This document shows, in pieces, positions 3,352-56,622 of a stretch of DNA of 61,849 nt. Below the pieces are notes generated by a model. That model was given only the letters and a program-made list of their open reading frames with translations. It made no database searches and had not been told where the DNA came from. The DNA lies in IMG/VR virus record IMGVR_UViG_3300033141_002871, positions 1-61,849 of that record; one strand, 5' to 3'. A program made the position numbers and the translations under genes. Numbering within the stretch: position 1 is the stretch's first letter; each line of letters begins with the position of its first letter. The stretch comes from a virus.

Positions 3352-3370
3352 CTATTTAGGAGATAAATAA
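3352..3370 (+). repeat. 19-bp AT-rich palindrome, copy 1
   Basis: TATTTA and TAAATA arms flank the 5-base loop GGAGA. It lies directly after the stop of the gene ending at 3351 and before the GTG at 3372. The loop GGAG is the only good ribosome binding site for that GTG, so a folded hairpin would mask it. Confidence 0.8.
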
Positions 3371-11082: not shown

Positions 11083-11715
11083 ATGGGTGCGAGATGGTAC
11101 ATTGCGGAAGTGGAAGAGGTAGCGCGGTTATCCCTGAAGAGGGCTGCCTCCAGGGCTTCCATTCGGGTCTGGGAGCCGCACCTGACAGTCAGGTACGTGA
11201 AGGACGGGAGGTGGACGGACGGAAGTGTCAGGCTCGCGGAGGGGTACGTGTTTCTTCGCGGGGAGTCGACGGAGGTGGTCGCGAAGGTAGTCGGGTCCGT
11301 GAGGGGCGCGAGACTGCTGCAGTCGAGGCGCAGGCCGGCGGTCCTTTCCGACGAGGACGTCGCGAGGTACGAGCAGGCGGAGAGGCTGGCGGTCCAGATC
11401 ACTCCGGGCATCGTGAGGTCGGGGGCGCGGGTCGCCGTTCGGAAGGACGTCCGTTCGCCGTACGCGGGATTGGTCGGAAGGTATCTCGACATGGGACTGG
11501 CGCTCAGGGGCGGGACGATGTACTCGCTGGTCGAGTTCGACATGTGGGGCCACACAAAGGTGGACTTCGTACCTGCCGATCATATTGAGGAGGCGCAGTG
11601 CGAGAGCCTGTTATCGTGTACGGATGGGATTATAGGGCGGTTAGGAGCGACGCTGTCGAGCCCGTTGCGACCGATCCGTTCGAGGGCCTCGACGGGGCAG
11701 GAGACAGAGGGGTGA
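11083..11715 (+). CDS. NusG-like transcription elongation / antitermination factor
   Basis: 210 residues. The NGN domain begins at RWYIAEV and contains the LAEGYVFLRG strand and SVRGARLL, equivalent to the NusG FPGYV and VP..F segments. A KOW domain follows (GARVAVRKDVRSPYAGLVGRY ... VDFVPADHIEE). The ribosome binding site for this ATG is weak. The last 40 codons overlap the next gene by 118 bases and look non-homologous, so the functional end is probably near residue 172. NusG-family proteins bind RNA polymerase and change pausing or termination; a phage copy suggests redirected host transcription. Confidence 0.78.
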   Translation: MGARWYIAEVEEVARLSLKRAASRASIRVWEPHLTVRYVKDGRWTDGSVRLAEGYVFLRGESTEVVAKVVGSVRGARLLQSRRRPAVLSDEDVARYEQAERLAVQITPGIVRSGARVAVRKDVRSPYAGLVGRYLDMGLALRGGTMYSLVEFDMWGHTKVDFVPADHIEEAQCESLLSCTDGIIGRLGATLSSPLRPIRSRASTGQETEG

Positions 11716-12641
11716 GCTGGGATGCGGTTCGCGAGATTGAGTGCCTGTTGTGGCCGAGGGAGCGACTGCTCCTCGGGCTTATGCGGCTCGGGAAGACACC
11801 GAGCGAGGTCGCGAGGATTCTGGGGTTTCCGAGGCGGCAGCGGGCGGCCGAGGAGATGCGGCGGGTCATCTCTGTCATATCCTTCTACGCGGGGCACTAC
11901 GAGACGGTCCGGAGGTTGTATCGGGGCAGGGTCAACCTTGACAGACGGCAGCTCATCGCGGTCCGGATGTACGCGGCCGGCAGAATCAATCAGAGGAGGG
12001 TCGCGGAGCTGCTCGGTTTTCGGCACAGGAGGGCTCTCTGCACCATGCTCCTACGGGCACGGGCCAGGCTCGCAGAGGCGGGCGACCATGAGGTATTACA
12101 ACTGCTCAGGGACTGCGCGAAGCGGAGGAAGAGCCTGCGGATGCGAAGGAGGAGACTGATGTCTACCGACGCTTGGCGAGATGACGTGAAGAGACGGCTG
12201 CTTCAGATGCTCGGGAAGGTCTGGTACGAGTGGGGCGGTCAGGACCTGGGGCGGCGCAGGGCGGACTGTTCTGGGCTGGTGCTTGAGGTCTTGAAGGAGG
12301 CAAGGGTTCTGCCTCCTACCGTCAAGGACATGACGGCGCACCAGCTCTCCAGGCTGTTCCGGCGTCGGGTCAAGAGGCCGCTGCCGGGGGATCTCGCGTT
12401 CTACGGCGGAAGCTGGTCTCGGGTTACTCACGTCATGTTTTACATGGGGGAAGTGGACGGGATCGAGGGGATGGTTGCCGGGATGTGCGGTGGCCGCAGG
12501 AACATGAAGGCTTCGTGGGCCAGGAAGGTCGGTGCCGGACTGTGGTTGCGACCGGCGAAGTACCGGAAGGACTTTCTCGGGTTTTCCCGGGTCGAGTTGA
12601 TTGTGGCGGATCAGCTCGGGATTTATTTATTGTCTAAATAA
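11598..12641 (+). CDS. Helix-turn-helix protein fused to an NlpC/P60 peptidase
   Basis: 347 residues. GTG at 11598 is preceded by GAGGAGG at good spacing. The N-terminal half has two sigma-region-4-like HTH segments (LGKTPSEVARILGF and AGRINQRRVAELLGF). From residue 188 an NlpC/P60 domain follows, with catalytic Cys224 in ADCSGLV and His278 in THVMFYMG. An internal ATG at 12159 has AGGAGG six bases upstream and would give a free 160-residue peptidase. The peptidase could cut host peptidoglycan in lysis or entry. The stop codon lies inside palindrome copy 2. Confidence 0.72.
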   Translation: MREPVIVYGWDYRAVRSDAVEPVATDPFEGLDGAGDRGVSWDAVREIECLLWPRERLLLGLMRLGKTPSEVARILGFPRRQRAAEEMRRVISVISFYAGHYETVRRLYRGRVNLDRRQLIAVRMYAAGRINQRRVAELLGFRHRRALCTMLLRARARLAEAGDHEVLQLLRDCAKRRKSLRMRRRRLMSTDAWRDDVKRRLLQMLGKVWYEWGGQDLGRRRADCSGLVLEVLKEARVLPPTVKDMTAHQLSRLFRRRVKRPLPGDLAFYGGSWSRVTHVMFYMGEVDGIEGMVAGMCGGRRNMKASWARKVGAGLWLRPAKYRKDFLGFSRVELIVADQLGIYLLSK

Positions 12642-13044: not shown

Positions 13045-13574
13045 TCGGATCTCTCGGCAGGTGCCCCCGTTGCTGGGGGTATGAGTGTGACTGCGAGACC
13101 ACGGAGTTGAATAGGGCTAAGGTAGAGAGAAGGGAACCTAATGAAGAGAGGGAGGCAAGCATGGACGTATTCGGAAACGATAACTATCCGTTGAACGAGA
13201 ACCACAACCCGAGCCGACGGCTGGAGAACATGAAGCCGGCCCCGAGGTGCTACATCGTCTGGAAGCCGAAGACTCCGGATGCCAGGGAGGTTCGGGGAAT
13301 CATCCGTCCAGGCTCGGCGGTCTGGGAGCCGAACTGCGCGAAGGTAGTCGCGGCCGGGGACGGATGCGAGCTGGCGAAGCCGGGCGACTACGTGTTCTGG
13401 TCGATGTTCGGCCGGGTGGACCGGGAGACCGGGGAGATCGACCACGGCAACAAGCCGTCTCCGGTCGTCTGGGGCTTCACGGACGAGGAGCCGGCGTTTT
13501 ACACGATCCATGAGCGGGACGTCGTTGCGGTGACGAAGAGTGGCGCGGAGGATGAGAGGTTGAGCGAGTTGTAA
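13041..13574 (+). CDS. GroES-like co-chaperonin candidate with a CxxC N-terminal extension
   Basis: 177 residues. From about residue 64 the protein follows the Cpn10 pattern: RCYIVWKPK, then GIIRPGSA, KVVAAGDGCELAKPGDYVFW, and a last strand ending in HERDVVAV. Phages of the T4 group encode such proteins (gp31) to help host GroEL fold the capsid protein. The first 40 residues add a Cys cluster (CPRCWGYECDC). A second ATG at 13161 with GGGAGG upstream would give a 137-residue form closer to a normal GroES, so two products are possible. No GroEL gene is in the window. Confidence 0.6.
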   Translation: MIGSLGRCPRCWGYECDCETTELNRAKVERREPNEEREASMDVFGNDNYPLNENHNPSRRLENMKPAPRCYIVWKPKTPDAREVRGIIRPGSAVWEPNCAKVVAAGDGCELAKPGDYVFWSMFGRVDRETGEIDHGNKPSPVVWGFTDEEPAFYTIHERDVVAVTKSGAEDERLSEL

Positions 13575-24128: not shown

Positions 24129-24259
24129 AGGAGAGGGTCAACAACCTGCTGTTCCCGGTGGTGCCGGAGGACATGACCATCGGAAAGTTCGAGGAGATCG
24201 CCGCCGGGCTGTACGATCTGATCTGCGACTCTGTCGAAAATTATTTATCGGATAAATAA
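24044..24259 (+). CDS. Hypothetical protein, 71 aa, paralog of the gene at 21117
   Basis: ATG with AGGAGGGTGAGGG upstream. C-terminal 40 residues match those of the gene at 21117. The last codons and stop (LSDK-stop) lie within palindrome copy 3. Confidence 0.6.
   Translation: MYPDNCHGRGGIRWGVRRDEPWTPPDDLKERVNNLLFPVVPEDMTIGKFEEIAAGLYDLICDSVENYLSDK
24241..24259 (+). repeat. 19-bp AT-rich palindrome, copy 3
   Basis: Perfect palindrome TTATTTATC-G-GATAAATAA. It encodes the last six codons and the stop of the upstream gene. The ParB-PAPS-reductase gene begins 24 bases later. Confidence 0.85.
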
Positions 24260-24282: not shown

Positions 24283-25518
24283 ATGGGCAAGAAGCGTAGG
24301 TCGAAGGTCGCGGGAGTACCTACAGAGAGAAGGCGCTTGTCTGAGTTGATTCCTGCCAGCTACAACCCGCGCAAGATTTCCGACGAAGCCAAACTTGCCC
24401 TGAGAAGGAGCATCGAGGAGTTCGGGCTGGTCCAGCCGATAGTCTGGAACAGGAGGACCGGGAGGGTTGTCGGCGGGCATCAGAGGCTCTCGATCCTGGC
24501 GGAAATGGGTGTCAGGGAGGTCGAGGTGGCCGAGGTGGATCTCGACGACTCCCATGAGAAAGCCTTGAACATAGCTTTGAACAGCGAGCGGTTGCAGGGA
24601 GAGTGGGATCTGCCGGCGCTGCGGGAGGTCCTGGGTGGCCTGGAGGCCGAGGGTTTGGGCGGGTTGTTGAAGGATCTGGATGTCGAAGGCCTGTTGTCCG
24701 ATATGGTGAGGGAGTACGAGAGCGACCCGAGGTGCTTGCTGGACAAACCCAAGTCCGCAGGATCCGCGCCGGCCTACCCCGAGCCGGACGCGGATGCCTC
24801 AGAGGTTGTCAGAGAGTGCGACCGGATGGTCGTCGAGTTCTCGGGCGGGAAGGACTCCACGGTCGCACTGGGATGGGCGCGGGCGGTATCGGAGAGGACG
24901 GGTCGGCCGTTGACGGCCCTGTTCGTCGAGACGGGCGCGGAGTTCCCGGATCTGACACTTCATGTGGCGAGGGTGTGCCGGGAGATGGGTGTCGACCTGA
25001 AAATGCTGCACCCGGAGCGAAACATCGTGGCGCACTATTACGGTGTCGGGAAGTGGCCAAGCCCCATTTACAGGGACTGCCAGTCCAGGTTCATAAACGA
25101 CGTGGTCGACCGGTACTGCCGACAGCAGTTCGGAGAAGAGATAGTGGCGACTATCAGGGGAGGACGCAAGGATCAGAAGACGTCCCGGACAAGGGGCATC
25201 GCATGCAAGAGGGTGTCCGGTAAGGGGCCGGTCAAGTGGCTGATTAGCCCGATGTACGGACAAGACTCCGAGTCTTACGCCGCCGAGTTGAAGAGAGTGG
25301 AAAGGCACCTGTGGCGCGGCTACAACTTGGGGTTCGTGCGGACCGCCTGCTGGATGTGCCCGTTCCAACTGACCGAGCAGTGGGAGGCGATGAAGAAACA
25401 CTACCCGCTGCTGTGGAGAGGCATGCTGCACCTGTCGAAGACCTTGGAGTTCCAGGTGGCCAGAGGGGACAGATACTGGCCCAGGTTCAGAAACTACTGG
25501 AGGAGAGCCTCCGAGTAA
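24283..25518 (+). CDS. ParB-like N-terminal domain fused to a PAPS reductase-like domain
   Basis: 411 residues, ATG with TAGGAGG upstream. Residues 17-110 form a ParB/Srx fold (SYNPRKIS, GLVQPIVWNRRTG, VVGGHQRL). From about residue 180 a PP-loop SGGKDST opens an adenylate-binding, PAPS-reductase-like domain, with a Cys pair ACWMC near the C-terminus. Such fusions occur in phages and plasmids; related DndC proteins act in DNA phosphorothioation. ParB folds of this type can bind NTP and cut or mark DNA. DNA modification or anti-defence is a reasonable inference, not shown here. Confidence 0.78.
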   Translation: MGKKRRSKVAGVPTERRRLSELIPASYNPRKISDEAKLALRRSIEEFGLVQPIVWNRRTGRVVGGHQRLSILAEMGVREVEVAEVDLDDSHEKALNIALNSERLQGEWDLPALREVLGGLEAEGLGGLLKDLDVEGLLSDMVREYESDPRCLLDKPKSAGSAPAYPEPDADASEVVRECDRMVVEFSGGKDSTVALGWARAVSERTGRPLTALFVETGAEFPDLTLHVARVCREMGVDLKMLHPERNIVAHYYGVGKWPSPIYRDCQSRFINDVVDRYCRQQFGEEIVATIRGGRKDQKTSRTRGIACKRVSGKGPVKWLISPMYGQDSESYAAELKRVERHLWRGYNLGFVRTACWMCPFQLTEQWEAMKKHYPLLWRGMLHLSKTLEFQVARGDRYWPRFRNYWRRASE

Positions 25519-25566: not shown

Positions 25567-25585
25567 TTATTTATCGGATAAATAA
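25567..25585 (+). repeat. 19-bp AT-rich palindrome, copy 4
   Basis: Perfect TTATTTATC-G-GATAAATAA, identical to copy 3. This is the only copy lying well away (more than 40 bases) from the nearest stop and start codons. Confidence 0.85.
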
Positions 25586-27787: not shown

Positions 27788-27806
27788 TTATTTATCTGCT
27801 AAATAA
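27788..27806 (+). repeat. 19-bp AT-rich palindrome, copy 5
   Basis: TTATTTA-TCTGC-TAAATAA, starting two bases after the terminase stop and ending 17 bases before the first possible start of the lipoprotein gene. Left half intact, right inner bases changed. Confidence 0.8.
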
Positions 27807-31291: not shown

Positions 31292-32391
31292 ACGCTTCGC
31301 TGGCAGAAGAGCTGCTGTCCCTTTCCGAGGACGATCTAGAGGACCTGGAGACCGTGCTTGTCGGGGCGGCCCCCGAGTTCGAGGAGGCGGCCCCGCGTGT
31401 TCTGAGACTGGCGAGTGGGATGGACAAGGTCCGGGCCTCCTACTACCGGAGGTTCGAGAAGCTGACGGCGGACCTGGAGAGGAAGGCGATCACCCTGCGG
31501 CAGTTCGAGAAGGAGGCACACGACCTCATCTCGACGACGTTCCGGGACGTCTACAGGACGCACCGGGGCAGGACGCTGACTCCGGGGGACGAGGAGTGGC
31601 TCTCCAGGGCCAGCGCGGAGGAGCTGAGGTACGCCTCGAAGTTCGGCAAGGACATCGATGCAGGCAATCTGAAGATGCCGAGACAGAGGCGGGCGATGCT
31701 GTACGCGCAGACCCTGAACGGGATCGCCCTGAACGCGAAGATCGAGGCGCTCCCGGACAACTCGCGGATCTGGTGGCGTCTAGGTCGTGGGGAGCATTGC
31801 ATTGACTGCTTGATTCTCGCCGCGAACTCGCCTTACACGAAGTGGAACCTCCCGACAACTCCGAGATCCGGTGATACCCGCTGCGTCAGTAATTGTTTGT
31901 GCAAACTTGAAGTGAATCTGGGAGTACTGAGCCGGGCGGAGCGGGAGGACGCCGCGGAGTACGCGCAGAAGCGGGACCAGAGCCTGAACGACATGCTGAG
32001 GCCGGTGAAGCCGCCGCGGGGGATGAGACTGGCGGAGCCGGCCGAGCTGAGGGTAATCGACGGGCTGCGGATGCGGATGAACCTGCTGCGGCGGAGGATG
32101 GCGGAGCCCGGCCTGGATCCGAAGGAGCTTCGGAAGCTGGCAGCGGAGAGGAGCAGGATCAACGCGAAGCTGATCGACTATCTGGAGGAGCGGGGCATCT
32201 ACGACGTCCCGGTCTGGAGTGTCGACGACGTGCTGGACGAGCGCCATGTCGGGCGCAGGGCGGTCCAGGAGCTGTTTCGGCACGGGATAGACGGCCGGAG
32301 CCTCTCTCTGGTCGAGAAGCGGCACCTCACCGCGATGCTCGACCGGTACGAGAAGGAGGTCGGGGAGCTGTTCTCCGACGAGGTTATTTAG
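31288..32391 (+). CDS. Minor head / head morphogenesis protein
   Basis: 367 residues; GTG overlaps the upstream stop and has GGGAG upstream (ATG 31276 is an alternative). The segment CIDCLILAANSPY...LPTTPRSGDTRC...NCLCKLEV is the Cys block typical of phage Mu F / SPP1 gp7-type head morphogenesis proteins, which usually follow the portal. The stop TAG is part of palindrome copy 6. Confidence 0.7.
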   Translation: MNASLAEELLSLSEDDLEDLETVLVGAAPEFEEAAPRVLRLASGMDKVRASYYRRFEKLTADLERKAITLRQFEKEAHDLISTTFRDVYRTHRGRTLTPGDEEWLSRASAEELRYASKFGKDIDAGNLKMPRQRRAMLYAQTLNGIALNAKIEALPDNSRIWWRLGRGEHCIDCLILAANSPYTKWNLPTTPRSGDTRCVSNCLCKLEVNLGVLSRAEREDAAEYAQKRDQSLNDMLRPVKPPRGMRLAEPAELRVIDGLRMRMNLLRRRMAEPGLDPKELRKLAAERSRINAKLIDYLEERGIYDVPVWSVDDVLDERHVGRRAVQELFRHGIDGRSLSLVEKRHLTAMLDRYEKEVGELFSDEVI

Positions 32392-32402
32392 GGGATAAAT
32401 AA
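32384..32402 (+). repeat. 19-bp AT-rich palindrome, copy 6
   Basis: TTATTTA-GGGGA-TAAATAA. It contains the stop of the minor head gene, and the next ATG follows with no gap at 32403. The loop GGGGA is seven bases before that ATG and is its only ribosome binding site. Confidence 0.85.
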
Positions 32403-38510: not shown

Positions 38511-38522
38511 CCGTGAACGTCT

Positions 38523-38568
38523 GGGCTGCGCGGTTCGAGTTAGGTATTGTGCCGCGCAGTCCTTTTTT
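38523..38568 (+). terminator. Intrinsic terminator after the major capsid gene
   Basis: 11-bp stem GGGCTGCGCGG (38523-38533) with CCGCGCAGTCC (38552-38562), one G-U pair, 18-base loop, then six T. Confidence 0.85.
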
Positions 38569-38612
38569 GTATATTCGCGGCGGAGTCGAACCTTAACCGA
38601 CAGGAGGAGAGA

Positions 38613-43346: not shown

Positions 43347-44047
43347 TGGCGACCCTGTCAGACATGAGAGACGAGGTGAGGCGGAGGATCGGAAGCCCGG
43401 ACACCACCGAGGTTCCGAACAGCGACATCGAGGCGGTGATTCAGAGCGAGGCGCTTGACTGGCTGAACAGGAGGCTCCCGGGTCGGAAGATCTCCTCGTT
43501 CACGACGGTCAAGGACCAGCAGGACTACGATGAGAAGCCGGCCAACGCCTACCTCGTGACTGCCGTCTGGTGGATGGAGAGCGACTTCCAGTTCTTCTCC
43601 CCGTCGATGAAGTACGTCGCGCAGGACCAGGACATCAACGAGAAGCTGGCGGGGTTCGACATCTACAAGGACACTGCGCTGGTCGAGGCGTTCTACAAGC
43701 AGCTTGAGACGTACAAGCACAACTTCAAGGGGGAGGGCTTCGAGACGGACGAGGGGAAGATCCGGCTGGAGCCCGTCCCGTCCTCCGGGGGAGACACGGT
43801 CTACTTCGAGTACAGCTACCCGAGGTGGAGCGACCCGACGGGCGTTCCGGACCGCCTTGTTCCCGGACTGAAGAAGAAGGCCGCCGCGATAATCCTCGAC
43901 TACCTGGCCGTGAGGCGCGGCCGGGTAAGGGGCGGCCGCAACTTCACCGGGGGCGGGGGAGAGAGGGAGGCGAACCTTGCCGGGAAGTTCCACGCGGAGG
44001 CGGATGGGGAGGTTCCGGCGCTAACAGTCGCTATCGGGCGGGGATGA
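43346..44047 (+). CDS. Head-tail connector (adaptor) protein
   Basis: 233 residues. The helical start SDMRDEVRRRIGSPD...VPNSDIEAVIQSEALDWLNR and the later KKKAAAIILDYLAVRRGR fit the phage adaptor family that plugs beneath the portal. It is separated from the next connector (54396) by the glycan cassette. Family call from pattern only. Confidence 0.6.
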   Translation: MATLSDMRDEVRRRIGSPDTTEVPNSDIEAVIQSEALDWLNRRLPGRKISSFTTVKDQQDYDEKPANAYLVTAVWWMESDFQFFSPSMKYVAQDQDINEKLAGFDIYKDTALVEAFYKQLETYKHNFKGEGFETDEGKIRLEPVPSSGGDTVYFEYSYPRWSDPTGVPDRLVPGLKKKAAAIILDYLAVRRGRVRGGRNFTGGGGEREANLAGKFHAEADGEVPALTVAIGRG

Positions 44048-46908
44048 TGAGCAAGAAAAAGGGTCGTCCTCTGTGGAGACAGAACGTCAGCGGGAAGCGG
44101 CAGATCGTCTCGCAGTATCCGAAATCAATCGTTGTGGAGCCTGGAGAGTGGGTGAGATCGGACGTCGTCGGCTGGGACACAGACGATTTCTCGGAGCCTA
44201 CAAAGATGAGTTCGTCGTTCAGTCGGATGGCAGAGGTGCGGGACGTGCACGGAAACGTCGTGCGGATTCTCGTTCCTGATACCGGGCCAACATCTCCAGG
44301 CGTCGAGGTTCCGGGAGGATCCGTCTCCATTGTTGTTCCGGTCTATGGACAGCACGAGTACCTGGCGGAGTGTCTCCGGGCGATCCGGAGGTCCAGTTCC
44401 CACGCCTTGGCGGAGGTCGTGGTCGTCGACGACAAGCCGGACGAGCCGGTCCCGGACGAGTTGGCGGCCGGGTGCGTTCTGGTGCGGAACGAGAGGAACG
44501 TGGGGTTCGGTGCCGCGTGCAACCGGGGCGCGGAGAAGTCGGCCGCCCCGTGGATTCTGTTCCTGAACAGCGACTGCGTGCCGGCCGGGGACTGGCTCTC
44601 GGATCTGCTCCGGACCGCGAGGCGGATGGCCGCGGAGGTGGTCGGAGCGCGGCTCCTCTACCCTCAGAGCCGCTCGGTGCAGCACGGCGGGATGAAGCGG
44701 GACGGTGACCTGTTCGTCCACGAGAAGGGAAAGTTGTCGGAGTTCTCGGAGGATCGGCACGTCCTCGCGGTCAGCGGGGCCTGCATGCTGGTGAGTCGGC
44801 AGGCGTGGGAGAGGCTCGGCGGGTTCGATCCGGAGTACGGGAAGGGGTACTTCGAGGACGTCGACCTGTGCCTGAGCTGGATCGAGGTCGGCGGCAGGGT
44901 CGCCTACTGCGGCTCGACGGAGATCGAGCACCACGAGTCGGTGTCGCAGGGGAAGCGGACGAAGGAGTGGGAGGAGCGGTTACAGAGGTCCGCCTCCGTG
45001 TTCCGGAAGAAGTGGCCGGCGACGCGGCTGGACGCGGCTGTAGAGAAGTATCCGCCGGTCCCGAGGGTGGATATCGTGGTCGCGGTGCACAACGCGCTGA
45101 GGCAGACGGCGGACTGCCTCAGGTCAATCGAGGAGAGGACTCCCGGCTGGATCGACTGGGAGGTGACGGTCCTGGACGACGCGAGCGAGCGGTTCGTCTC
45201 CGAGTGGCTCCGGGCCTGGTGCCGGGAGCACGAGAGGTTCTGCTACGTCCGGAGCGAGGTGAACCGTGGCTACCTTTCCTCGATAGACGAGGCAACGAGA
45301 ATCACTAGCCGTGAGTGGATCTGCTACGTGAACAGCGACGTCATCGTTACGGACGGCTGGCTCGGCGCGATGCTCTGCGCCGCCGAGGCCGACCCGAGGG
45401 TCAAGATCGTGAACCCGCACACGAACAGCGCCGCCCACCTGTCGATCCAACCGCCGCCCGGCTCCAACTACGTTGATGCAGACGCCCGGCTCATGGTGTC
45501 GAGCCCGCGCCGCAGGTTCGACGTCGTGACCCCGGTCGGCTTCTGCATGTTGGTCGAGCGGGAGGCCCTGGCCGAGTGCGGCGGCTGGGACGTCGAGTAC
45601 TACGGGAGGGGGTACGGCGAGGAGTGCGACCTCTACATGAGGATGCTGGAGCGCGGGTACAGGTCGGTCGTCGCGGACGACTGCTACGTCCTGCACGAGG
45701 GCGGGGCGACGTTCGGCCTGTTCGGCAGCAAGGCGGACCAGGAGCGGGCCGGCTACCTCCGCTTCATGAAGCGGTGGAAGGCAGGCATCGAGCCGATGCT
45801 GGCCCGGTTCAACCGGGAGGCCCCGCACCGGGTCTCCGAGGCCGCGATGACCGGGGCGACGACGGAGCGTCCGAGGGTCGTGTTCGCCTTCTCCGGGGAG
45901 GCGACCCTATGCGGCGGGGTGCTGGCGGTCGTCCACATCTGCAACCGGCTAATCGAGCACGGGTGGAACGCCACGTTCGCCTGCACGAGGCTCTCCCCCG
46001 AGACCCTGAAGCTGCTCGGCGCGAGGTTCAGGCCCCTGGTCTACTCGGATCGGGCGAGACTGATTTCCGGCCTGGCGGCCCAGGCACCCGCCGTGATCGT
46101 GGCGACGATCTGGTTCAGCGTGCGGGACGTGCTGGCGGCCTGCGGGAAGGCCGAGGGACTCGTTCCCGCTTACTTCGTCCAGGACGTCGAGTACATGTTT
46201 CGGTATCCGAGCGGGGAGCCCTACGTCTCGGAGGAGGAGGTCGTCGGGACGTGGCTGTCGATTGACAGCATTGTGGCCAATTCGGACTGGGTTCTGGAGA
46301 CCATTCGCGAGAAGACTGGGGATTCCTCTCTGGGCCGGAAGATCGGGATCGGGGTGGACCCGCTAGTATTCTACCCGAGGGAGAAGCCGTCCGACCGGAT
46401 CGTCGTGATGGCGCATTGCCGACCGTCGACTCCTCGGAGAGGATGGGACGTGCTGGCAAGGGTTCTGGCCGGGCTGAAGGCGTCGTTCGGGGACGCTGTG
46501 CGGACGGTCGTCTACGACCAGAAGCCGGTCGGCATTCGAGTCGACGAGTCGATGGGCCGGGTTTCCCCGCACGAGCTGGCGAGGCGGATGGGGGAGGCGC
46601 ACCTGTTCCTGGAGGGCTCCAGGTTCCAGGGCTGGGGAATGCAGGCCCTGGAGGCGATGTCGTGCGGCTGCGCTTTAGTGAGTACGGAGAACCGGGGCAT
46701 CGACAACTACGGTACGGACGGCTACGACTGCGTCGTTGTTCCTCCCCACTCTCCGGAGGCGATGCTCGGGGCGGCGAGCGCATTGGTACGTGATGCCGGT
46801 TTGAGGGCTGGTATCGGGCACTGCGCACGCGAAACTGCCAAGCGGTTCGACTGGTCGGTCGTCGGGGAGGCGTGGCACGGATTCCTCTCCGATTTATTTA
46901 GCGGATAA
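44044..46908 (+). CDS. Triple glycosyltransferase (GT2-GT2-GT4) with an N-terminal SGK module
   Basis: 954 residues; ATG overlaps the connector stop. Residues 1-85 hold the module QNVSGKRQIV...VEPGEWV also found at 52700 and 53067. First GT2 domain (about 92-330): VSIVVPVYGQ, VVVVDDKPDE, LFLNSDCVP. Second GT2 (about 340-600): VDIVVAVHN, VLDDASE, YVNSDVIV, GEECDLYMRM. Third, GT4-like (about 608-954): a GGVLAVVHICN start and GSRFQGWGMQALEAMSCG acceptor/donor motif. Three sugar transfers could be made by one chain. The stop lies in palindrome copy 7. Confidence 0.85.
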   Translation: MMSKKKGRPLWRQNVSGKRQIVSQYPKSIVVEPGEWVRSDVVGWDTDDFSEPTKMSSSFSRMAEVRDVHGNVVRILVPDTGPTSPGVEVPGGSVSIVVPVYGQHEYLAECLRAIRRSSSHALAEVVVVDDKPDEPVPDELAAGCVLVRNERNVGFGAACNRGAEKSAAPWILFLNSDCVPAGDWLSDLLRTARRMAAEVVGARLLYPQSRSVQHGGMKRDGDLFVHEKGKLSEFSEDRHVLAVSGACMLVSRQAWERLGGFDPEYGKGYFEDVDLCLSWIEVGGRVAYCGSTEIEHHESVSQGKRTKEWEERLQRSASVFRKKWPATRLDAAVEKYPPVPRVDIVVAVHNALRQTADCLRSIEERTPGWIDWEVTVLDDASERFVSEWLRAWCREHERFCYVRSEVNRGYLSSIDEATRITSREWICYVNSDVIVTDGWLGAMLCAAEADPRVKIVNPHTNSAAHLSIQPPPGSNYVDADARLMVSSPRRRFDVVTPVGFCMLVEREALAECGGWDVEYYGRGYGEECDLYMRMLERGYRSVVADDCYVLHEGGATFGLFGSKADQERAGYLRFMKRWKAGIEPMLARFNREAPHRVSEAAMTGATTERPRVVFAFSGEATLCGGVLAVVHICNRLIEHGWNATFACTRLSPETLKLLGARFRPLVYSDRARLISGLAAQAPAVIVATIWFSVRDVLAACGKAEGLVPAYFVQDVEYMFRYPSGEPYVSEEEVVGTWLSIDSIVANSDWVLETIREKTGDSSLGRKIGIGVDPLVFYPREKPSDRIVVMAHCRPSTPRRGWDVLARVLAGLKASFGDAVRTVVYDQKPVGIRVDESMGRVSPHELARRMGEAHLFLEGSRFQGWGMQALEAMSCGCALVSTENRGIDNYGTDGYDCVVVPPHSPEAMLGAASALVRDAGLRAGIGHCARETAKRFDWSVVGEAWHGFLSDLFSG

Positions 46909-46912
46909 ATAA
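46894..46912 (+). repeat. 19-bp AT-rich palindrome, copy 7
   Basis: TTATTTA-GCGGA-TAAATAA. Contains the stop codon of the triple glycosyltransferase; the next ATG is at 46924 behind a GGGAGG site. Confidence 0.85.
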
Positions 46913-46923
46913 GGGAGGTCCCG

Positions 46924-47934
46924 ATGAGGATCATGTTGAACAACTACTCGTATCCTGGCCTGGTCCGCGCGCTGGAGGATGCGGGGCACGAGGTCCTCGG
47001 GAAGACCGCCGGGCCGGACGAGTTCAACTGGTGGCATCACCTGATCAACCTGGGGAGGTCAAACGAGGAGTACGACGCGATTCTCCGCTCCCAGATCGAG
47101 GAGCACCGGCCCGACGTCTACTTGTGCGGCAAGGGCTGGCACTTCTCGAAGATGATCTCTCCGGAGACGACCGAGTGGATTCGGGAGAGGGTCGGCTGCA
47201 CCCTGTACTGGAGCCTCGACGATCCGGACTTCATGCAGACGTTCTCGGAGCTGGAGATGTGGCGCGGCTACGACGTCGCCCTGACCTGCTGCGGCGAGTG
47301 CGTGAGGCAGTACGAGGAGATGGGTCTGGAGGCGCACCTGTTCTGGCCGGCCTGGGACCAGGAGGCGAGGGAGCCGGTCGTCGAGGTCCCGGAGGACAAG
47401 AGGTTCGCTGACTTCCTGATCGTCGGGACTCCCTACGCGCACACGGTTCCGGCGAGGCGGGACGTCGCGAAGGCGGTGTCGGAGCTGGGCGCGGACCTCT
47501 GGCTCTACGGTCCTGATAGCTGGGTGAAGCAGGAGCACGGCGGTTACTCGTCGCTCTGGAAGCACTACCACGGGTACTGGAAGGAGTGGGGCAGGGTCCA
47601 CGACCTGTTCGCCGGTGCCAGGGTCAACTTCTCGAATCATGTCAGGCGGGCCGAGGGTTACTTGAATGATCGGGTTCCGATGGTGATGGGGGTTGGCGGG
47701 GTGCTCTTTCTCGACCGGCAGCCGGGCCTGGACAAGTGGTTCGTCGACGGGGAGGAGGTCGTGTTCTTCGACGACCTGAAGGACCTCGTCTCGAAGCTGA
47801 TGTACTACCTTCCGAGGCCGGAAGAGAGGGCGAGGATCGGCAGGGCCGCGAGGGAGAAGACGCTGTCGGCGCACACGTACAGGCACCGGGCTGAGCAGCT
47901 CCTTGACATCCTGGCGGCGAGGGGGCTGAAGTGA
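46924..47934 (+). CDS. CgeB-like glycosyltransferase (GT-B fold)
   Basis: 336 residues. Short N-terminal Rossmann part, then YWSLDDPDFMQTF, LTCCGECVRQYEEMGL, and the C-terminal block VNFSNHVRRAEGYLNDRVPMVMGVGGVLFLDRQPGLDKWF. This layout matches CgeB/DUF3880-type glycosyltransferases of spore coats and phages. Second gene of the glycan cassette; GTGA overlap with the next gene. Confidence 0.75.
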   Translation: MRIMLNNYSYPGLVRALEDAGHEVLGKTAGPDEFNWWHHLINLGRSNEEYDAILRSQIEEHRPDVYLCGKGWHFSKMISPETTEWIRERVGCTLYWSLDDPDFMQTFSELEMWRGYDVALTCCGECVRQYEEMGLEAHLFWPAWDQEAREPVVEVPEDKRFADFLIVGTPYAHTVPARRDVAKAVSELGADLWLYGPDSWVKQEHGGYSSLWKHYHGYWKEWGRVHDLFAGARVNFSNHVRRAEGYLNDRVPMVMGVGGVLFLDRQPGLDKWFVDGEEVVFFDDLKDLVSKLMYYLPRPEERARIGRAAREKTLSAHTYRHRAEQLLDILAARGLK

Positions 47935-48353
47935 AGACCCGGGGTAACGTAAACGTCCATCCGACCGCGGAGATTCGCAGCGACGTGGAGCAGGTGTCGA
48001 TGATTGCCCTGGAGGGCGGCTTGATTGAGATCGGGGAGGGAGTGTTCGTCAACAACGGGGTCTGGATTCGCTCCGCGGCAAGCGTGTCTATCGGAGCCTG
48101 GTCGAAGATCGGCCCGAGAGTGATGATCATGGATTCCGACTCCCACGACACCGCTCCGGGACACGGGCCAGCGTCGGGGGCGAAGCCGGTCGTCATTGAG
48201 GAGGACGTCTGGATCGGGGCTGGGGCGATCATCCTGAAAGGTGTCCGGATCGGAAAGCACTCGGTCGTCGGAGCCGGCTCCGTAGTTACCCGGGACATAC
48301 CTGCGTCCACCATCGTTGCCGGAAACCCTGCGAGGGTTCTGAGGCAGGTATGA
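47931..48353 (+). CDS. Hexapeptide-repeat acyltransferase
   Basis: 140 residues, GTG start overlapping the upstream stop. Left-handed beta-helix repeats (IEIGEGVFVNNGV, VSIGAWSKIGPRV, VVIEEDVWIGAGA, VRIGKHSVVGAGS) and the end IVAGNPARVLRQ identify the sugar O-acetyltransferase group. The His in SDSHD is the likely catalytic base. Would acylate a sugar made or transferred by its neighbours. Confidence 0.85.
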   Translation: MKTRGNVNVHPTAEIRSDVEQVSMIALEGGLIEIGEGVFVNNGVWIRSAASVSIGAWSKIGPRVMIMDSDSHDTAPGHGPASGAKPVVIEEDVWIGAGAIILKGVRIGKHSVVGAGSVVTRDIPASTIVAGNPARVLRQV

Positions 48354-49477
48354 GGCTCCTTTTTGTCAACCCGAGGGGGAGCGTTTCGGACGGCAAGTGG
48401 CTGCCGCTCGGGTTCGCCGGCGTGGCGACCCTGGCGATTCGGGCCGGGCACGAGGTGCTCCTTGTCGACGAAGAAGCGGGCCGTGGGTTCTCCGGGAAGG
48501 ATCTGGGCTGGTGCGACGTCGTTTGCGTAACTGGGATGACTCATCAGGCTGCCGGGATTCGGAGAGTCGCTGAGAGATCTCTGGAGGTCGGTCGGCGGGT
48601 GATTGTCGGCGGCGTGCACGCGAGCCTGACAGCGGACGGACTGCCGGAGGGCGCGGAGAGGTTCCGGGGGCCTGCAGAACATGCCTTTCTGGAGGCCCTG
48701 GAGGCCCCTGGGAGCGCGAGGGCCGGAAGACCCGACCCGGACCACCTGATGCCGCCGAACAGGCTCAGAACGGGCTGGAGGCGCTACAGGGAGGCGGTTG
48801 ATGGCAGGAGGGCAGCGCGGGTTCTCGGAGCGGTGGGCTGCCCGTTCCGATGCAAGTACTGCTGCAACCGGACACTGACCGGCGGACGATTCAAGCCGAG
48901 GTCCCCCGGTTCAGTCGCCAGGGAATTCAAGTGGCTGAAGCGGGAGGGGGTGGAGATCGTCCTGTTCGCGATGTCCGCCTTCTCGATCCGGCGCGCCTGG
49001 GTCGAGGACGTGTGTGGGCGACTGGCGAAGATCGGCATTCCTTGGCGGGCGACGACCCGGGTGGACCTGGTAGACGCCGATCTGCTTCGGACGATGAAGG
49101 CCGGAGGATGCGAGCGGCTCGGGTTCGGGGTGGAGTCGGGAGACGACGAGATTCTGAGGATCATCGGCAAGGGGACGACCGTGGAGCAGGCGGAACGCGC
49201 CTTCCGGCTCTGCCGAGAGGTTGGACTAGATACTTGGGCGATGTTGATGACCCACGTGCCCGGGGAGACTCATGCGAGCCTGCGGAGAACAAGGAGATTC
49301 GCCGATCGGCTCCGTTCCGAGTTCGGGGCTGAAGTGACCTTCCAGCGGTTCAGTCCGCTACCCGGCAGCGCGTTCTGGGACGAGCTGGACCGGTGGGGAG
49401 TGGTCGACGAGGCGGACGGGACCGGGTTCGGCCCGGTCAAGTTCACGCCCTGGGACTTCGTGGAGGTGGGGAGATGA
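48350..49477 (+). CDS. B12-binding radical SAM enzyme
   Basis: 375 residues, ATGA overlap. N-terminal cobalamin-binding-type fold (residues 1-120; GVATLAIRAGHEVLLVD, IVGGVHASL), then the radical SAM cluster motif CPFRCKYC (about residue 165) and a TIM-barrel pattern (VESGDDEILRIIGKGTT). Members methylate or rearrange unactivated carbons, often in natural products and glycans. Within this cassette it may C- or P-methylate a sugar; substrate unknown. Confidence 0.82.
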   Translation: MRLLFVNPRGSVSDGKWLPLGFAGVATLAIRAGHEVLLVDEEAGRGFSGKDLGWCDVVCVTGMTHQAAGIRRVAERSLEVGRRVIVGGVHASLTADGLPEGAERFRGPAEHAFLEALEAPGSARAGRPDPDHLMPPNRLRTGWRRYREAVDGRRAARVLGAVGCPFRCKYCCNRTLTGGRFKPRSPGSVAREFKWLKREGVEIVLFAMSAFSIRRAWVEDVCGRLAKIGIPWRATTRVDLVDADLLRTMKAGGCERLGFGVESGDDEILRIIGKGTTVEQAERAFRLCREVGLDTWAMLMTHVPGETHASLRRTRRFADRLRSEFGAEVTFQRFSPLPGSAFWDELDRWGVVDEADGTGFGPVKFTPWDFVEVGR

Positions 49478-50412
49478 AGTTGCTTCTGACGAACCACGGG
49501 ATGTCCGACTTCGCCGGTTCGGAGCTGGCGACCTACACGCTGGCGCACATGCTGAGGCGGCAGGGGCACGACCCGTGGGTCTACACGCCGAGGCCGGGCC
49601 AGGTGTCGGCCAGGCTCGGAGACGTGGGCTTCAAGGTAACCGGCGACGTGACCGAGTGGAGAGAGGAGAGGTTTGACGTCGTCCACTTCCACCACAGGGT
49701 CTGCGTGCCCCCGGTGCGTGCGGTGTTCCCGGACCTGCCCGCGATTTACGTGAGCCACGGAGTGATCCCCGACCTGGAGAAGCCGCCCCTGGACGCCGGG
49801 ATCGACAGGTTCGTCGCGGTCAGCGAGGAGGTGGAGGGGATGCTGCAGAGACTCGGAGTTTCACCGGACCGGATCTCCGTCATCCGGAACGGAGTGAACC
49901 TGTGCCGGTTCAAGCCGCTCAGGCGCGTCTCTGCAAAGTTGAATCGGGTGCTGGTGATCTCCAACCACTTTCCCACGTCGCTCTGGAAGCTGCTGCAGAC
50001 CGCATGCAAGAGGCTCGGCGCGGAACTGCGCGGCATCGGGATCGGTCTGGACCGGGGTCCGACGTGGGAGACAGAGACCCTTATGAACTGGGCGGATCTC
50101 GTCGTGTCCCTGGGCCGGGGCGCTTTGGAGGCGATGGCGTGCGCGAGGGCGGTCCTGGTCTGGGACGTGCACGGCGGGGACGGTCTGGTCACTCCGGACA
50201 CGTACCCGGCGATTCGGAAGTGCAACTTCTCCGGGCGCGCGGTTGGCGAGGACTACGGCCTGGAGAGGCTGGTCGACCTGCTGCGGCAGTACCGGCCCGA
50301 TATGGGCGCTGTGAACCGGAAGCTGGCGATGTACAGGCACGACTCAGAGAGGTTGATATGGGATTACGAGAGGGTCTACGAGTGGGCAGTCGAGAGGAGG
50401 TCATCATGCTGA
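49474..50412 (+). CDS. GT4-type glycosyltransferase
   Basis: 312 residues, ATG with GGAGGTGGGG upstream, overlapping the previous stop. N-domain NHGMSDFAGSELATYTLAHML and FDVVHFHHR, linker VAVSEEVEGML...VIRNGVNLCRFKP, then a shortened C-domain with SLGRGALEAMACARAVLVWD. The EX7E-like motif is partial. Short for the family (usually about 370), but the order is intact. Confidence 0.8.
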   Translation: MKLLLTNHGMSDFAGSELATYTLAHMLRRQGHDPWVYTPRPGQVSARLGDVGFKVTGDVTEWREERFDVVHFHHRVCVPPVRAVFPDLPAIYVSHGVIPDLEKPPLDAGIDRFVAVSEEVEGMLQRLGVSPDRISVIRNGVNLCRFKPLRRVSAKLNRVLVISNHFPTSLWKLLQTACKRLGAELRGIGIGLDRGPTWETETLMNWADLVVSLGRGALEAMACARAVLVWDVHGGDGLVTPDTYPAIRKCNFSGRAVGEDYGLERLVDLLRQYRPDMGAVNRKLAMYRHDSERLIWDYERVYEWAVERRSSC

Positions 50413-51962
50413 GACTGAGATACGCTTCCCCCGTTCCGAACGAGCAGGTCAACCTCGCGTTCGGGCCGACAAGGGAGAGGCACTACAGCAGGGTTCGCGA
50501 TGTGTCCAGCTTCTCCGGGGAGGGCGAGAACCTGATCTTCATAGTCGGAGCGCCGAGGAGCGGGACGACGTGGCTCCTGAAGCTGCTGGAGGAGCACCCG
50601 GACGTCGTCGGGGTGAGGCGCGGCGACCTCGGGCTCGGGGATCCGGTCGGCCCGTACCTGGAGACCGGTGCGTTCACGGAGGCCGCCGGTCTTCCGGACT
50701 CGGAGATCCGGGAGAGGTTCCGAGTCTTGACCGAGAGGAACCCCGGTAAGGTGCTGGTGGAGAAGACTCCGATGCACCTGATGTGCGTCGACCGGATAAG
50801 GGAGGTCTTCCCGAAGGCCGCGATCATCCTGACGAGGCGGGAGGGGCGGGACGCCTTCGCGTCCATACTGGCGGCCGGGAAGGACCCGGAATCCTGGTGG
50901 AGGGACGCCCCGACGACCGCGGAGGCCGCCGCGAAGCTGTGGCTTGATTACGCCATCGCGTCGAGTCGCTGCGAGGGCTGCTACAATCCCTACGTCGTGC
51001 GGTACGAGGACCTGGTGTTCGACACCGAGGGCACCTTGGAGGAGCTGCTGAGAGCCCATGGTCTTGACCAGGCATATGTCAGGAGCCAGGTGGAGGCGTG
51101 CGTCGGCGGGAGGAACATCGAGGTCCCCGGAGTGTTTCGGCGCGGTATCGTCGGCGGGTGGAAGGGAGACCTGAGCCCGGCAGAGCTGGAGACCTTCGAG
51201 ATCGTCGCGGGCAAGATGAACTGGCGGCCGGCATGGAAGCGTAGCGAGCAGCCGGACCTGACGGTCGTTCTGTCCTGCTTCGAGCGGCCGAGGAGCCTGA
51301 GCCGGTCGGTTCAGTCTCTCCTCGACCAGACGATCCTTCCGAGGATGGAGGTCATCGTATGCGACGACGGATCGTCGAACCCGGCGACCCGCCGAATGCT
51401 GCGGATGCTGGAGAACCGGGAAGGGTTCCGCGTGATTCGCGGGGACAGGACATCGCCGACCCACAAGGAGGGTTTCTGCACGTTCACCCAGTTGATCAAC
51501 CGGGCGATGCACTGCGCCTCCGGGCGCTACGTGACCTACTTGTGCGACGGGGACGAGTACCGGCCGAACCGGTGCGGACTCCACGTCAGGCACCTCGACG
51601 AGAACCCAGACTGCTTCGCGGTCTGGTCGAGGAGCGAGTGGCTGAGGGACGGCGTGCCGGAGGCGGAGCGGGGATTCAATGGCTCGGCTTCGGAACTGAG
51701 GAATGCGATCGCGAACGGCAACTTCATCCACCACTGTGAGTTCACGCACCGGAGGACCGGGCTGAGGTGGAGCACGTCGCCGGACTCCTGGCGGTTCGCG
51801 GACTGGCTGTTCCTGCAGCGGCTGTTGCTCGACGGAAAGAGGTTCGAGGAGCTGGACGCGGTAACCCAGGTGAAGCACTACGACTCGGAGAGTCTCGGCA
51901 GGTCGATGGGCGAAAGGAAGGAGGCATTCGTGGACGTCGTGAGGAGGAGGATGAAGGGATGA
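50406..51962 (+). CDS. Sulfotransferase fused to a GT2 glycosyltransferase
   Basis: 518 residues. Residues 40-280 form a PAPS-dependent sulfotransferase: P-loop GAPRSGTTWLLKLL (about 48), VEKTPMH, and AIILTRREGRDAFAS as the 3'-phosphate loop. Residues 285-518 are a GT2 domain (LTVVLSCFERPRSLSRSVQS, VIVCDDGSSN, YLCDGDEY), paralogous to the next gene. The protein may add a sugar and then sulfate it. Confidence 0.82.
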   Translation: MLRLRYASPVPNEQVNLAFGPTRERHYSRVRDVSSFSGEGENLIFIVGAPRSGTTWLLKLLEEHPDVVGVRRGDLGLGDPVGPYLETGAFTEAAGLPDSEIRERFRVLTERNPGKVLVEKTPMHLMCVDRIREVFPKAAIILTRREGRDAFASILAAGKDPESWWRDAPTTAEAAAKLWLDYAIASSRCEGCYNPYVVRYEDLVFDTEGTLEELLRAHGLDQAYVRSQVEACVGGRNIEVPGVFRRGIVGGWKGDLSPAELETFEIVAGKMNWRPAWKRSEQPDLTVVLSCFERPRSLSRSVQSLLDQTILPRMEVIVCDDGSSNPATRRMLRMLENREGFRVIRGDRTSPTHKEGFCTFTQLINRAMHCASGRYVTYLCDGDEYRPNRCGLHVRHLDENPDCFAVWSRSEWLRDGVPEAERGFNGSASELRNAIANGNFIHHCEFTHRRTGLRWSTSPDSWRFADWLFLQRLLLDGKRFEELDAVTQVKHYDSESLGRSMGERKEAFVDVVRRRMKG

Positions 51963-51993
51963 ACCGGAGGGTGAAGGGATGAACCGGAGGGTG
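51954..51993 (+). repeat. 20-bp tandem duplication at a gene junction
   Basis: AAGGGATGAACCGGAGGGTG occurs twice in a row (51954-51973 and 51974-51993). It duplicates the start region of the next gene; the first ATG (51959) overlaps the upstream stop but is out of frame with the second. Confidence 0.9.
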
Positions 51994-52698
51994 AGCGCGA
52001 TAGTGAGCAGCTTCAACCGGCCGGAGGGCCTGCGCAGGTCCCTGGAGTCGGTGATTCAACAGACAATCGACGCGGAGATCATCGTGTGCGACGACGCCTC
52101 GACGGACCAGGAGGTGATGGAGATCCTGGAGGACGCCGAGGCCCGGTTCGGTGCGAGGATCGTCCGGGGAGAGCCGGTGTCGGTGAGCCGGAAGACCGAG
52201 GTCTGTACGTTCACGCGCCTGATAAACCGGGCGATGGACCTGGCGACCGGGGACTACGTTAGCTACCTGACGGACGGCAACTCGTGGCTCCCGGGCAGGT
52301 GCGCGGAGTACGTGAAGGTCCTGGACACGAGGCCGGACATATTTCTGGTCTGGGGCATGGTGCAGAACGTGAGGGACGGGGTGCCGCAGTCCATGCCCGC
52401 CTTCTTCCCGCTGAGGCACTGGCAGGTGGTGAACCAGTTGCGCCGGTTCAACATCATCGATCACAGCTCGGTGATGCATCGTCGGACCGCTGTGCGGTGG
52501 GACGAGGGGCCGGAGTCGTGGCGCTGCGCCGACTGGCTGTTCTGGAAAAGGCTCCTCGCGGCAGGACACGGGAAGTTTGTCAATCTGCCGGTGCACGGGG
52601 AGGTGTTCTATGACGAACCCGACAGTCTCGGTCGCTCGATGGTCGAGCGGGGCGAGGCGCTCGGAGACGTGCTCGCTTCGCGAGCAGAAGGAGGCTGA
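51979..52698 (+). CDS. GT2 glycosyltransferase
   Basis: 239 residues, ATG in the second copy of the tandem duplication. VSAIVSSFNRPEGLRRSLES, EIIVCDDAST, and YLTDGNSWLP give a standard GT2 fold; WRCADWLFWKRLL and DEPDSLGRSM near the end match the C-terminal half of the previous protein, showing recent gene duplication. Confidence 0.82.
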   Translation: MNRRVSAIVSSFNRPEGLRRSLESVIQQTIDAEIIVCDDASTDQEVMEILEDAEARFGARIVRGEPVSVSRKTEVCTFTRLINRAMDLATGDYVSYLTDGNSWLPGRCAEYVKVLDTRPDIFLVWGMVQNVRDGVPQSMPAFFPLRHWQVVNQLRRFNIIDHSSVMHRRTAVRWDEGPESWRCADWLFWKRLLAAGHGKFVNLPVHGEVFYDEPDSLGRSMVERGEALGDVLASRAEGG

Positions 52699-52699
52699 G

Positions 52700-53038
52700 A
52701 TGGGCCTGAGGTATGCGAGGAACGTGAGCGGGAAGATCCAGATCGTCCCGAACTACGAGACGGGCGTTGCCCTGGAGATTGCCCCGGGGGAGATCGTGCT
52801 GTACGAGAAGGTGGCTCCGGACGGAAAGCTGTTTCCCGGATTTGAGCTACACTCAGAGGTCGAGCCGTACAGTCCGAAGGCCCCGAAGAGGCCGCCGACC
52901 CCAAAGGTTCCGGTGCCTCCGAAGACTCCGGTTCCGGAAAAGGAGAAGGCCATCGCCCCGAAGAGGACCGCGAAGCCGAGGAAGAAGACCGGGGCGAAGC
53001 CGAGGAAGCGGGCGACTCGGAAGAAGGCGGCCAAGTGA
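52700..53038 (+). CDS. SGK-module protein with Lys/Pro-rich tail, 112 aa
   Basis: ATG with GAAGGAGG upstream. Residues 1-55 hold the module RNVSGKIQIV...IAPGEIVLYEK, shared with the genes at 44044 and 53067. Residues 58-112 are Pro/Lys repeats (KAPKRPPTPKVPVPPKTPVP) ending in a basic run like histone tails. May be a virion-bound linker or DNA-associated protein. Confidence 0.65.
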   Translation: MGLRYARNVSGKIQIVPNYETGVALEIAPGEIVLYEKVAPDGKLFPGFELHSEVEPYSPKAPKRPPTPKVPVPPKTPVPEKEKAIAPKRTAKPRKKTGAKPRKRATRKKAAK

Positions 53039-53047
53039 CCCGGCCGC

Positions 53048-53066
53048 TCATTTATCGGATAAATAA
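53048..53066 (+). repeat. 19-bp AT-rich palindrome, copy 8
   Basis: TCATTTATC-G-GATAAATAA, one mismatch in the left arm. The next ATG follows directly at 53067; only the internal CGGA could act as its ribosome site. Confidence 0.8.
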
Positions 53067-53243
53067 ATGAAGCTGACGGCGGTCAGAAACCTGAGCGGGA
53101 AGATCCAGGTGATCAACGGGCGGTCCTACGCGCCGGGCGATCTGGTGCCGGTGGAGGATTCGATCCTGGCGGATGGTAGGGTTCTCCCGACCCTCGGGCC
53201 GCCGCCGGACACGCGCAGGATTGCCAATCGAGGTGGCGGGTGA
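53067..53243 (+). CDS. Stand-alone SGK-module protein, 58 aa
   Basis: ATG abuts palindrome copy 8. Reads VRNLSGKIQVINGRSYAPGD, the same module as in the genes at 44044 and 52700, followed by a short Pro-rich end. GTGA overlap with the following glycosyltransferase suggests coupled expression. Probably a small beta domain. Confidence 0.65.
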   Translation: MKLTAVRNLSGKIQVINGRSYAPGDLVPVEDSILADGRVLPTLGPPPDTRRIANRGGG

Positions 53244-56529: not shown

Positions 56530-56568
56530 TCCTCGCCTGGCGGGACGCCCCTCGCCCCAGAGTTGATC

Positions 56569-56594
56569 ACCGCGGCCCGGGCGTGGGCCGCGGT
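56569..56594 (+). terminator. Strong hairpin without U tract after the tube gene
   Basis: Perfect 10-bp stem ACCGCGGCCC with GGGCCGCGGT, loop GGGCGT. It is followed by ACCTTGTTG, so it is not a clear intrinsic terminator. May attenuate transcription or protect the tube mRNA. Confidence 0.45.
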
Positions 56595-56622
56595 ACCTTG
56601 TTGACAGGACAGGAGGCGGGAA

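Follow-up and report, generated by a model that had tools for sequence, protein, structure and literature searches.

Two overlapping genes on the plus strand occupy positions 11083 to 12641 of the window, by which we mean the whole 61,849-base stretch of DNA that was analysed. The first encodes a NusG-family protein and the second a protein in which two helix-turn-helix (HTH) segments are fused to an NlpC/P60 domain (HTH-NlpC below). The features of this locus are as follows.

11083-11715, plus strand: NusG-family gene, 210 aa (Pfam NusG, PHROG 6386, AF2 model with Foldseek, homologue in G002)
11083-11598, plus strand: conserved NGN+KOW part of the NusG gene, residues 1-172
11092-11367, plus strand: NGN domain (Pfam NusG match; model pLDDT supports most of the domain)
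11410-11598, plus strand: KOW-type beta barrel, residues about 110-172 (model strands, motif kept in G002)
11587-11593, plus strand: Shine-Dalgarno (SD) sequence GAGGAGG of the HTH-NlpC gene, within the NusG coding sequence (from the sequence)
11598-12641, plus strand: HTH-HTH-NlpC/P60 fusion gene of 347 aa that starts at GTG; 118-nt overlap with the NusG gene, -1 frame
11754-11867, plus strand: HTH 1, residues 53-90, sigma-region-4 / HTH_23-like (matches below cut-off)
11937-12077, plus strand: HTH 2, residues 114-160, LuxR/sigma-4-like (UPF0175 match below cut-off; GerE in G002)
12171-12596, plus strand: NlpC/P60 papain-fold domain, residues 192-333 (PF00877, Cys224 and His278 conserved)

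The phage genome and its relatives

The window is an IMG/VR virus record with 62% GC, and its plus strand holds nearly all genes. It comes from an uncultured tailed phage. The structural and packaging genes include those for a T4-gp23-type capsid protein, a portal, a protease, a tape measure and a terminase, and the replication block encodes DNA polymerase, UvsX, SbcC/SbcD and RuvC. Relatives were sought by scanning IMG/VR with the major capsid protein (MCP), and four related contigs with 58 to 64% identity were found (G001, G002, G003 and G004). G002 (IMG/VR 3300017971_007887), whose MCP is 64% identical to that of the window, spans the NusG region. The NusG and HTH-NlpC genes were not found in G001, G003 and G004, which are late-gene fragments (55.8 kb in the case of G004) whose lack of the pair carries no information; the window and G002 are the only two genomes known to carry the pair. 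A tblastn search of 50,697 phage records with the window NusG protein gave no match up to E=10, and single-protein scans of IMG/VR with NusG and HTH-NlpC as queries found nothing. The pattern VAGMCGG occurs at 18 IMG/VR loci, among which the real one is the known relative only. Alignment-based scans added no relative beyond G002. A genome scan for NusG gave a single match, in ANME-1 (L010), which was discarded as a false positive, as it sits in a hydrolase-like ORF.

Comparison with G002 indicates that the window is incomplete: about 23 kb that G002 carries between the last and first window genes is missing. In this region G002 encodes an ArdC-type anti-restriction protein with an MPTase-PolyVal domain (L054:2998-3945). 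Elsewhere in the window, glycosyltransferase and sulfotransferase genes form a run (44044-54379) amid the adaptor and tail genes, and exact short tandem repeats with 18 and 20 bp units are found at gene ends (57471-57515 and 51953-51995).

The phage NusG protein

The 11083-11715 product, encoded by the sole NusG-family gene in the record, matches Pfam NusG (PF02357) with E=4.5e-6 and 27.5 bits (curated cut-off 22.2) and PHROG 6386 'transcription antiterminator' with E=7.9e-10. A structure model was made with AlphaFold2 from two sequences. Block means of pLDDT in the modelled NGN domain are mostly 82 to 95, falling to 56-57 at residues 31-50, and the C-terminal barrel has five strands at pLDDT of about 61 to 79. 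Foldseek searches of solved structures with this model placed NusG, RfaH and archaeal Spt5 on top (best E=4e-9). The NGN matches have TMt of 0.57 to 0.70 and an rmsd of about 3 Å to RfaH/NusG, and the alignment to NusG is full-length. The original prediction of a phage NusG-like protein has support from family models, from the fold and from a syntenic homologue in G002, and membership of the NusG/Spt5 family is well supported. A phage-encoded NusG is not new in itself, since the best named matches among viral models include proteins called NusG and RfaH.

The same prediction described the protein as a complete NGN plus KOW protein. The NGN part stands on both the Pfam match and the fold. For the KOW part, which gave no Pfam KOW match, the evidence is the model together with an alignment in which the motif V.V..D.RSP[YF]AGL ... 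VDFVPADH is conserved between the window and G002 (RSP[YF]AGL...VPxDH). A KOW-type barrel following the NGN domain is predicted at moderate confidence. Profile comparison of the NusG pairs by hhalign was weak (E=0.0011, probability 20%, from tiny alignments) and reaches only the start of the KOW domain. The remaining C-terminal tail of about 38 residues past KOW falls in the gene overlap and is neither coding-like nor conserved. Since codon preference switches frame at about 11598, behind GAGGAGG, the ORF probably runs on for its final 38 residues without selection.

Overlap and conservation of the gene pair

The NusG gene was predicted to lie directly upstream of the HTH gene and to overlap it, and the overlap amounts to 118 nt. 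At about 11598 codon usage leaves the NusG frame and enters that of HTH-NlpC; this switch, together with the GAGGAGG sequence, makes it likely that translation of the two genes is coupled. A programmed frameshift joining NusG to HTH-NlpC was considered and rejected, since visual inspection around the overlap showed no slippery heptamer and GTG 11598 has a good SD sequence ahead of it. An alternative start of HTH-NlpC at GTG 11712, which would leave a 4-base overlap with NusG, was also rejected, since the sequence upstream of it already codes better in the HTH-NlpC frame and a YGW motif there is conserved in G002.

The G002 NusG protein is 30 to 33% identical to that of the window (E=7.6e-15), and its HTH-NlpC protein is 46% identical over nearly the whole length (E=1.7e-77). 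Both genomes share the gene order RuvC - NusG - HTH-NlpC - g13 - g14; in the window a methyltransferase gene and one further gene separate RuvC from NusG, and no counterpart of either was found in G002. NusG and HTH-NlpC overlap by 121 nt in G002, with the same frame relation as in the window. Judged from the sequences, the pair is real and retained, since G002 keeps both genes, their order and a nearly identical overlap. A small, weakly GroES-like protein is encoded behind the pair (13161-13574) and is conserved in G002.

Domains and likely role of HTH-NlpC

The two N-terminal HTH segments that had been predicted in the downstream gene are present, and the C-terminal half of the protein, its larger part, had been missed: it matches NlpC/P60 (PF00877) with E=2.7e-8 over residues 209-288. 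The scores are 34.2 bits in the window and 31.8 bits in G002 (cut-off 23). The description of the HTH part as sigma-region-4-like survives as a plausible fold class, with every match below its cut-off. HTH_23 matches the whole window protein with E=2e-4, slightly under the cut-off; the G002 homologue matches Sigma70_r4_2 at HTH 1 (E=0.0055) and GerE at HTH 2 (E=0.11), both under cut-off. The best Sigma70_r4_2 score is 16.8 bits in the G002 homologue against a cut-off of 25.7, and the window protein gave none. Pfam found no sigma region 2 in HTH-NlpC, the remainder of which is NlpC/P60. Assignment of the protein to the sigma-70 family is not supported by its sequence. The structure model of HTH-NlpC is poor (pLDDT 58) and gave no significant fold match in Foldseek.

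The NlpC/P60 domain raises the possibility that HTH-NlpC is a peptidoglycan hydrolase for lysis or entry, that its N-terminal helices form no regulator, and that its position next to NusG is mere operon packing. The Pfam match is above the cut-off, Cys224 and His278 are conserved in the domains of both phages, the best PHROG match is PHROG 329 'minor tail protein' (E=3.9e-11), and homologues in phages Mx8/Mx9 match the NlpC half. However, the gene is placed in the replication/recombination block, away from the tail or lysis genes; the protein has two HTH segments and no recognised cell-wall-binding domain, and a hand alignment places Ala (reading VAG) at the usual third polar catalytic position in the two phages. 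The sequence points to NlpC/P60 membership at the level of the fold, with catalysis uncertain, and we regard a hydrolase role as rather unlikely.

Palindrome families at gene starts

The HTH-NlpC gene ends in a palindrome (12623-12641), and in the window its product runs past the C-terminus of the G002 homologue by 14 residues. The 19-bp palindromes that had been reported for this genome are real: eight TTATTTA-N5-TAAATAA sites are found when the weaker copies are included, and such sites are absent from 100 of 100 shuffled sequences, far above chance. They are listed here with no strand assigned.

3352-3370: CTATTTA-GGAGA-TAAATAA in the g2/g3 gap, one mismatch (position matches G002r 33484)
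12623-12641: TTATTTA-TTGTC-TAAATAA, gives the HTH-NlpC stop codon and is followed by the SD and ATG of g13 (position matches G002r 41180)
24241-24259: ahead of g42 (ParB-like + PAPS-reductase-like)
25567-25585: ahead of the terminase large subunit gene (position matches G004 11345)
27788-27806: between terminase and g44 (also in the 97% relative L007/G005)
32384-32402: touching the g50 ATG
46894-46912: ahead of g70 (glycosyltransferase)
53048-53066: touching the g77 ATG, one mismatch

Each of the eight is either in a gap ahead of a start codon or overlaps the stop codon of the gene before. By our own gene calls, no more than 46 nt separate the palindrome end from a start at seven of them (P=3.7e-8), and two abut an ATG. 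The arms are invariant except for two single mismatches, and the 5-base centre is variable. The ParB-like and PAPS-reductase-like fusion gene (24283-25518) comes right after the palindrome at 24241, and its product is an alternative candidate for a palindrome-associated protein. At the window junctions 38511-38612 and 56530-56622, behind the capsid and major tail protein genes, terminator-like hairpins are found and no palindrome; the relatives have palindromes there.

Each relative has a family of its own. No TTATTTA-N5-TAAATAA site was found in G002, which carries eight TTAAACA-N-TGTTTAA sites, and three more of this type are in G001. G003 and G004 have TGTTTAAC-N3-GTTAAACA sites, seven of them in G004. 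The families in the window, G002 and G004 thus have 7 to 8 sites each, compared with a largest family of two in shuffled genomes. Palindromes stand at matching junctions of two genomes after HTH-NlpC, g2, capsid and major tail protein and before terminase, an overlap that, with so few sites and taken alone, is only suggestive. Three of 23 sites, all in G002 and G004, are directly behind strong intrinsic terminators and before an SD and ATG (P=3e-4). Two G004 sites (24708 and 49351; L056/L057) share an identical stretch of terminator tail, palindrome, SD and ATG, tatcaatcTGTTTAACGGTGTTAAACAaaaacaggagaaaaaacaaATGGGCAA, a duplicated 5' region behind the capsid and major tail protein genes.

It had been suggested that the palindromes load the phage NusG protein as ops loads RfaH: polymerase would pause, the exposed strand would fold and NusG would be recruited. 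The sites are just upstream of genes, both NusG-bearing phages have a palindrome family, and the pause consensus G-10 Y-1 G+1 occurs in 7 of 7 G004 sites and 4 of 8 G002 sites, so that the palindromes of these two genomes may have a role in pausing. The remaining evidence argues against loading. The pause consensus occurs in none of the eight window sites, where 8.9 occurrences are expected by chance, and the ops consensus GGCGGTAGNNT was not found in the window, G002 or G004. In an ops-type hairpin the loop is the part that is read. The window palindromes show the reverse, with fixed arms and a variable centre, and their two-fold symmetry fits a protein dimer and not a monomeric NusG. G002, the only relative seen to keep NusG, has a different palindrome family. 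The three sites of the relatives behind terminators mark transcription-unit starts and not leader sites that precede a terminator, with little room for an upstream promoter. NusG loading at these sites is in our view highly improbable. Reading of the palindromes as RNA hairpins was also rejected for the window and G002, where the hairpin energies are near zero (0 to -1.5 kcal/mol), and these energies favour DNA recognition. As RNA, the G004 palindromes would form a modest hairpin (-4.6 kcal/mol).

The positions of the palindromes argue that they act at the points where transcription starts anew. A dimeric DNA-binding protein is indicated as their reader by the constant arms around a variable centre, by the two-fold symmetry and, in the window and G002, by the negligible RNA stability, and the palindromes fit fast-evolving DNA operators or promoter elements. 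Their right arm resembles a T4-late-type TATAAATA promoter, a reading that may still hold although the sites that abut ATG leave no leader. They could also be dispersed repressor operators, like the stoperators of cluster A mycobacteriophages, that block transcription in a lysogen and diverge to give immunity groups. The sites are dispersed, intergenic and near gene starts, and they differ from one relative to the next, partly at equal junctions; cluster A stoperators diverge comparably between subclusters (PMC6550527). The palindromes are symmetric, however, whereas the stoperators of cluster A lack symmetry and have an orientation (PMC9283540), there are only 7 to 8 sites, and the proteins scanned include no recognisable integrase or repressor. 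We consider such a repressor system somewhat improbable.

A possible phage transcription module

The reading that we prefer, with a probability of about 0.5, is a translationally coupled phage transcription module that consists of an elongation factor and a DNA-binding partner, with the palindromes as its sites. The phage NusG (NGN+KOW) would bind elongating host RNA polymerase, displacing or outcompeting host NusG, and the polymerase would then read the long one-directional phage genome processively, presumably by antitermination. It would need no site and would act, like housekeeping NusG, on any elongating host polymerase. NusG could instead poison the host: by occupying RNA polymerase it would block those functions of host NusG that are coupled to Rho or to the ribosome, and it would play no part in phage expression. 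The NusG domains are present and the sequence is divergent, as such a poison would allow, but a long one-directional phage genome would itself gain from antitermination, and we think pure poisoning quite unlikely.

In the module that we favour, HTH-NlpC would be the DNA-binding partner, with a papain-fold NlpC/P60 domain joined to its two HTH units, and its most likely role would be that of a phage regulator of transcription or host takeover. The palindromes would serve as DNA operators or promoter elements at transcription-unit starts, with a sequence that changes between relatives, and HTH-NlpC is the best visible candidate for their reader. This is the weakest step of the explanation, and we put the protein forward as a candidate. 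Between the window and G002 the HTH recognition segments are 29 to 31% identical and the NlpC part 56%, as would be expected if the DNA specificity had changed along with the palindromes; HTH 2 is divergent throughout, beyond its recognition helix. HTH-NlpC is the only HTH regulator candidate seen in both genomes (the small-terminase-like g15 aside), and no other clear DNA-binding transcription regulator was found among the proteins scanned. Several observations speak against the module. No HTH match reaches its cut-off, the HTH-NlpC model is poor, and the NlpC/P60 domain suggests action on the cell wall and not in transcription. Another regulator, encoded in the unseen part of the genome (about 23 kb), may read the palindromes. 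G004 has palindromes, yet its 55.8 kb fragment yielded neither gene.

In a more elaborate form, HTH-NlpC would be a new kind of regulator that is complexed with the phage NusG, selects the palindromes and passes the elongation factor to polymerase. The papain fold would then be a regulatory domain, and HTH-NlpC would co-evolve with the palindromic start sites. We see this form as distinctly doubtful. For the preferred module, a NusG gene beside a coupled gene for a putative DNA-binding protein, retained in two divergent phages, gives a defined pair to test, and phage-encoded NusG factors are annotated and scarcely studied as far as the literature covered shows. We view the pair as a conserved module that is moderately novel. 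Of greater interest are the palindrome families, whose divergence between related phages offers a natural experiment in how a regulator and its sites change specificity together.

Comparison with known systems

Bacterial NusG (E. coli NusG, PDB 6tqn and 6gov) has the same order of NGN then KOW and gives a full-length fold match, but the window protein is phage-encoded and only 22% identical to E. coli NusG. In the FPGY motif of NusG, FP is replaced by AE in the window protein, and the motif reads YPGY in G002. RfaH, ActX/PrfaH, LoaP, UpxY and TaA are alike in being extra NusG-type factors carried by, or serving, horizontally acquired operons; the specialised paralogues differ from the present case, in which no ops-like element was found. 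The C-terminal domain of RfaH has an alpha-helical, autoinhibited form, whereas that of the window protein is modelled as an all-beta KOW barrel, in a single-state prediction from two sequences. A phage-carried class was not found among the paralogues in a review of these factors (PMC7819879). Phage proteins that are annotated as NusG/RfaH (PHROG 6386 and the BFVD entries A0A6J5PZH6 and A0A6J5MAV8) are similar in size and fold, but the tblastn search of phage records detected no relation to them.

With regard to the palindromes, cluster A stoperators (PMC9283540, PMC6550527) are likewise dispersed repeats with sequence turnover between relatives, but each is an asymmetric 13-bp site oriented with transcription, unlike the sites found here. 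In cluster K mycobacteriophages, the start-associated sequences (PMC3203893) are dispersed short repeats that lie a few bases from start codons, and the window palindromes resemble them in layout, seven of eight being no further than 46 nt from a start and two touching the ATG. The cluster K sites are asymmetric and those of the window are AT-rich palindromes, and membership of this class is not claimed. For the HTH partner, the group 2 jumbo phages, which have gp23-type capsids as does the phage studied here, offer a parallel: they use minimal HTH sigma factors and gp33, small HTH proteins that recruit host RNA polymerase (PMC7824862). The passages of this paper covered here describe no NlpC/P60 fusion, and HTH-NlpC is likened to these proteins by analogy only; as a functional analogy for a putative HTH partner of a phage NusG, the minimal sigma/gp33 system appears reasonable.
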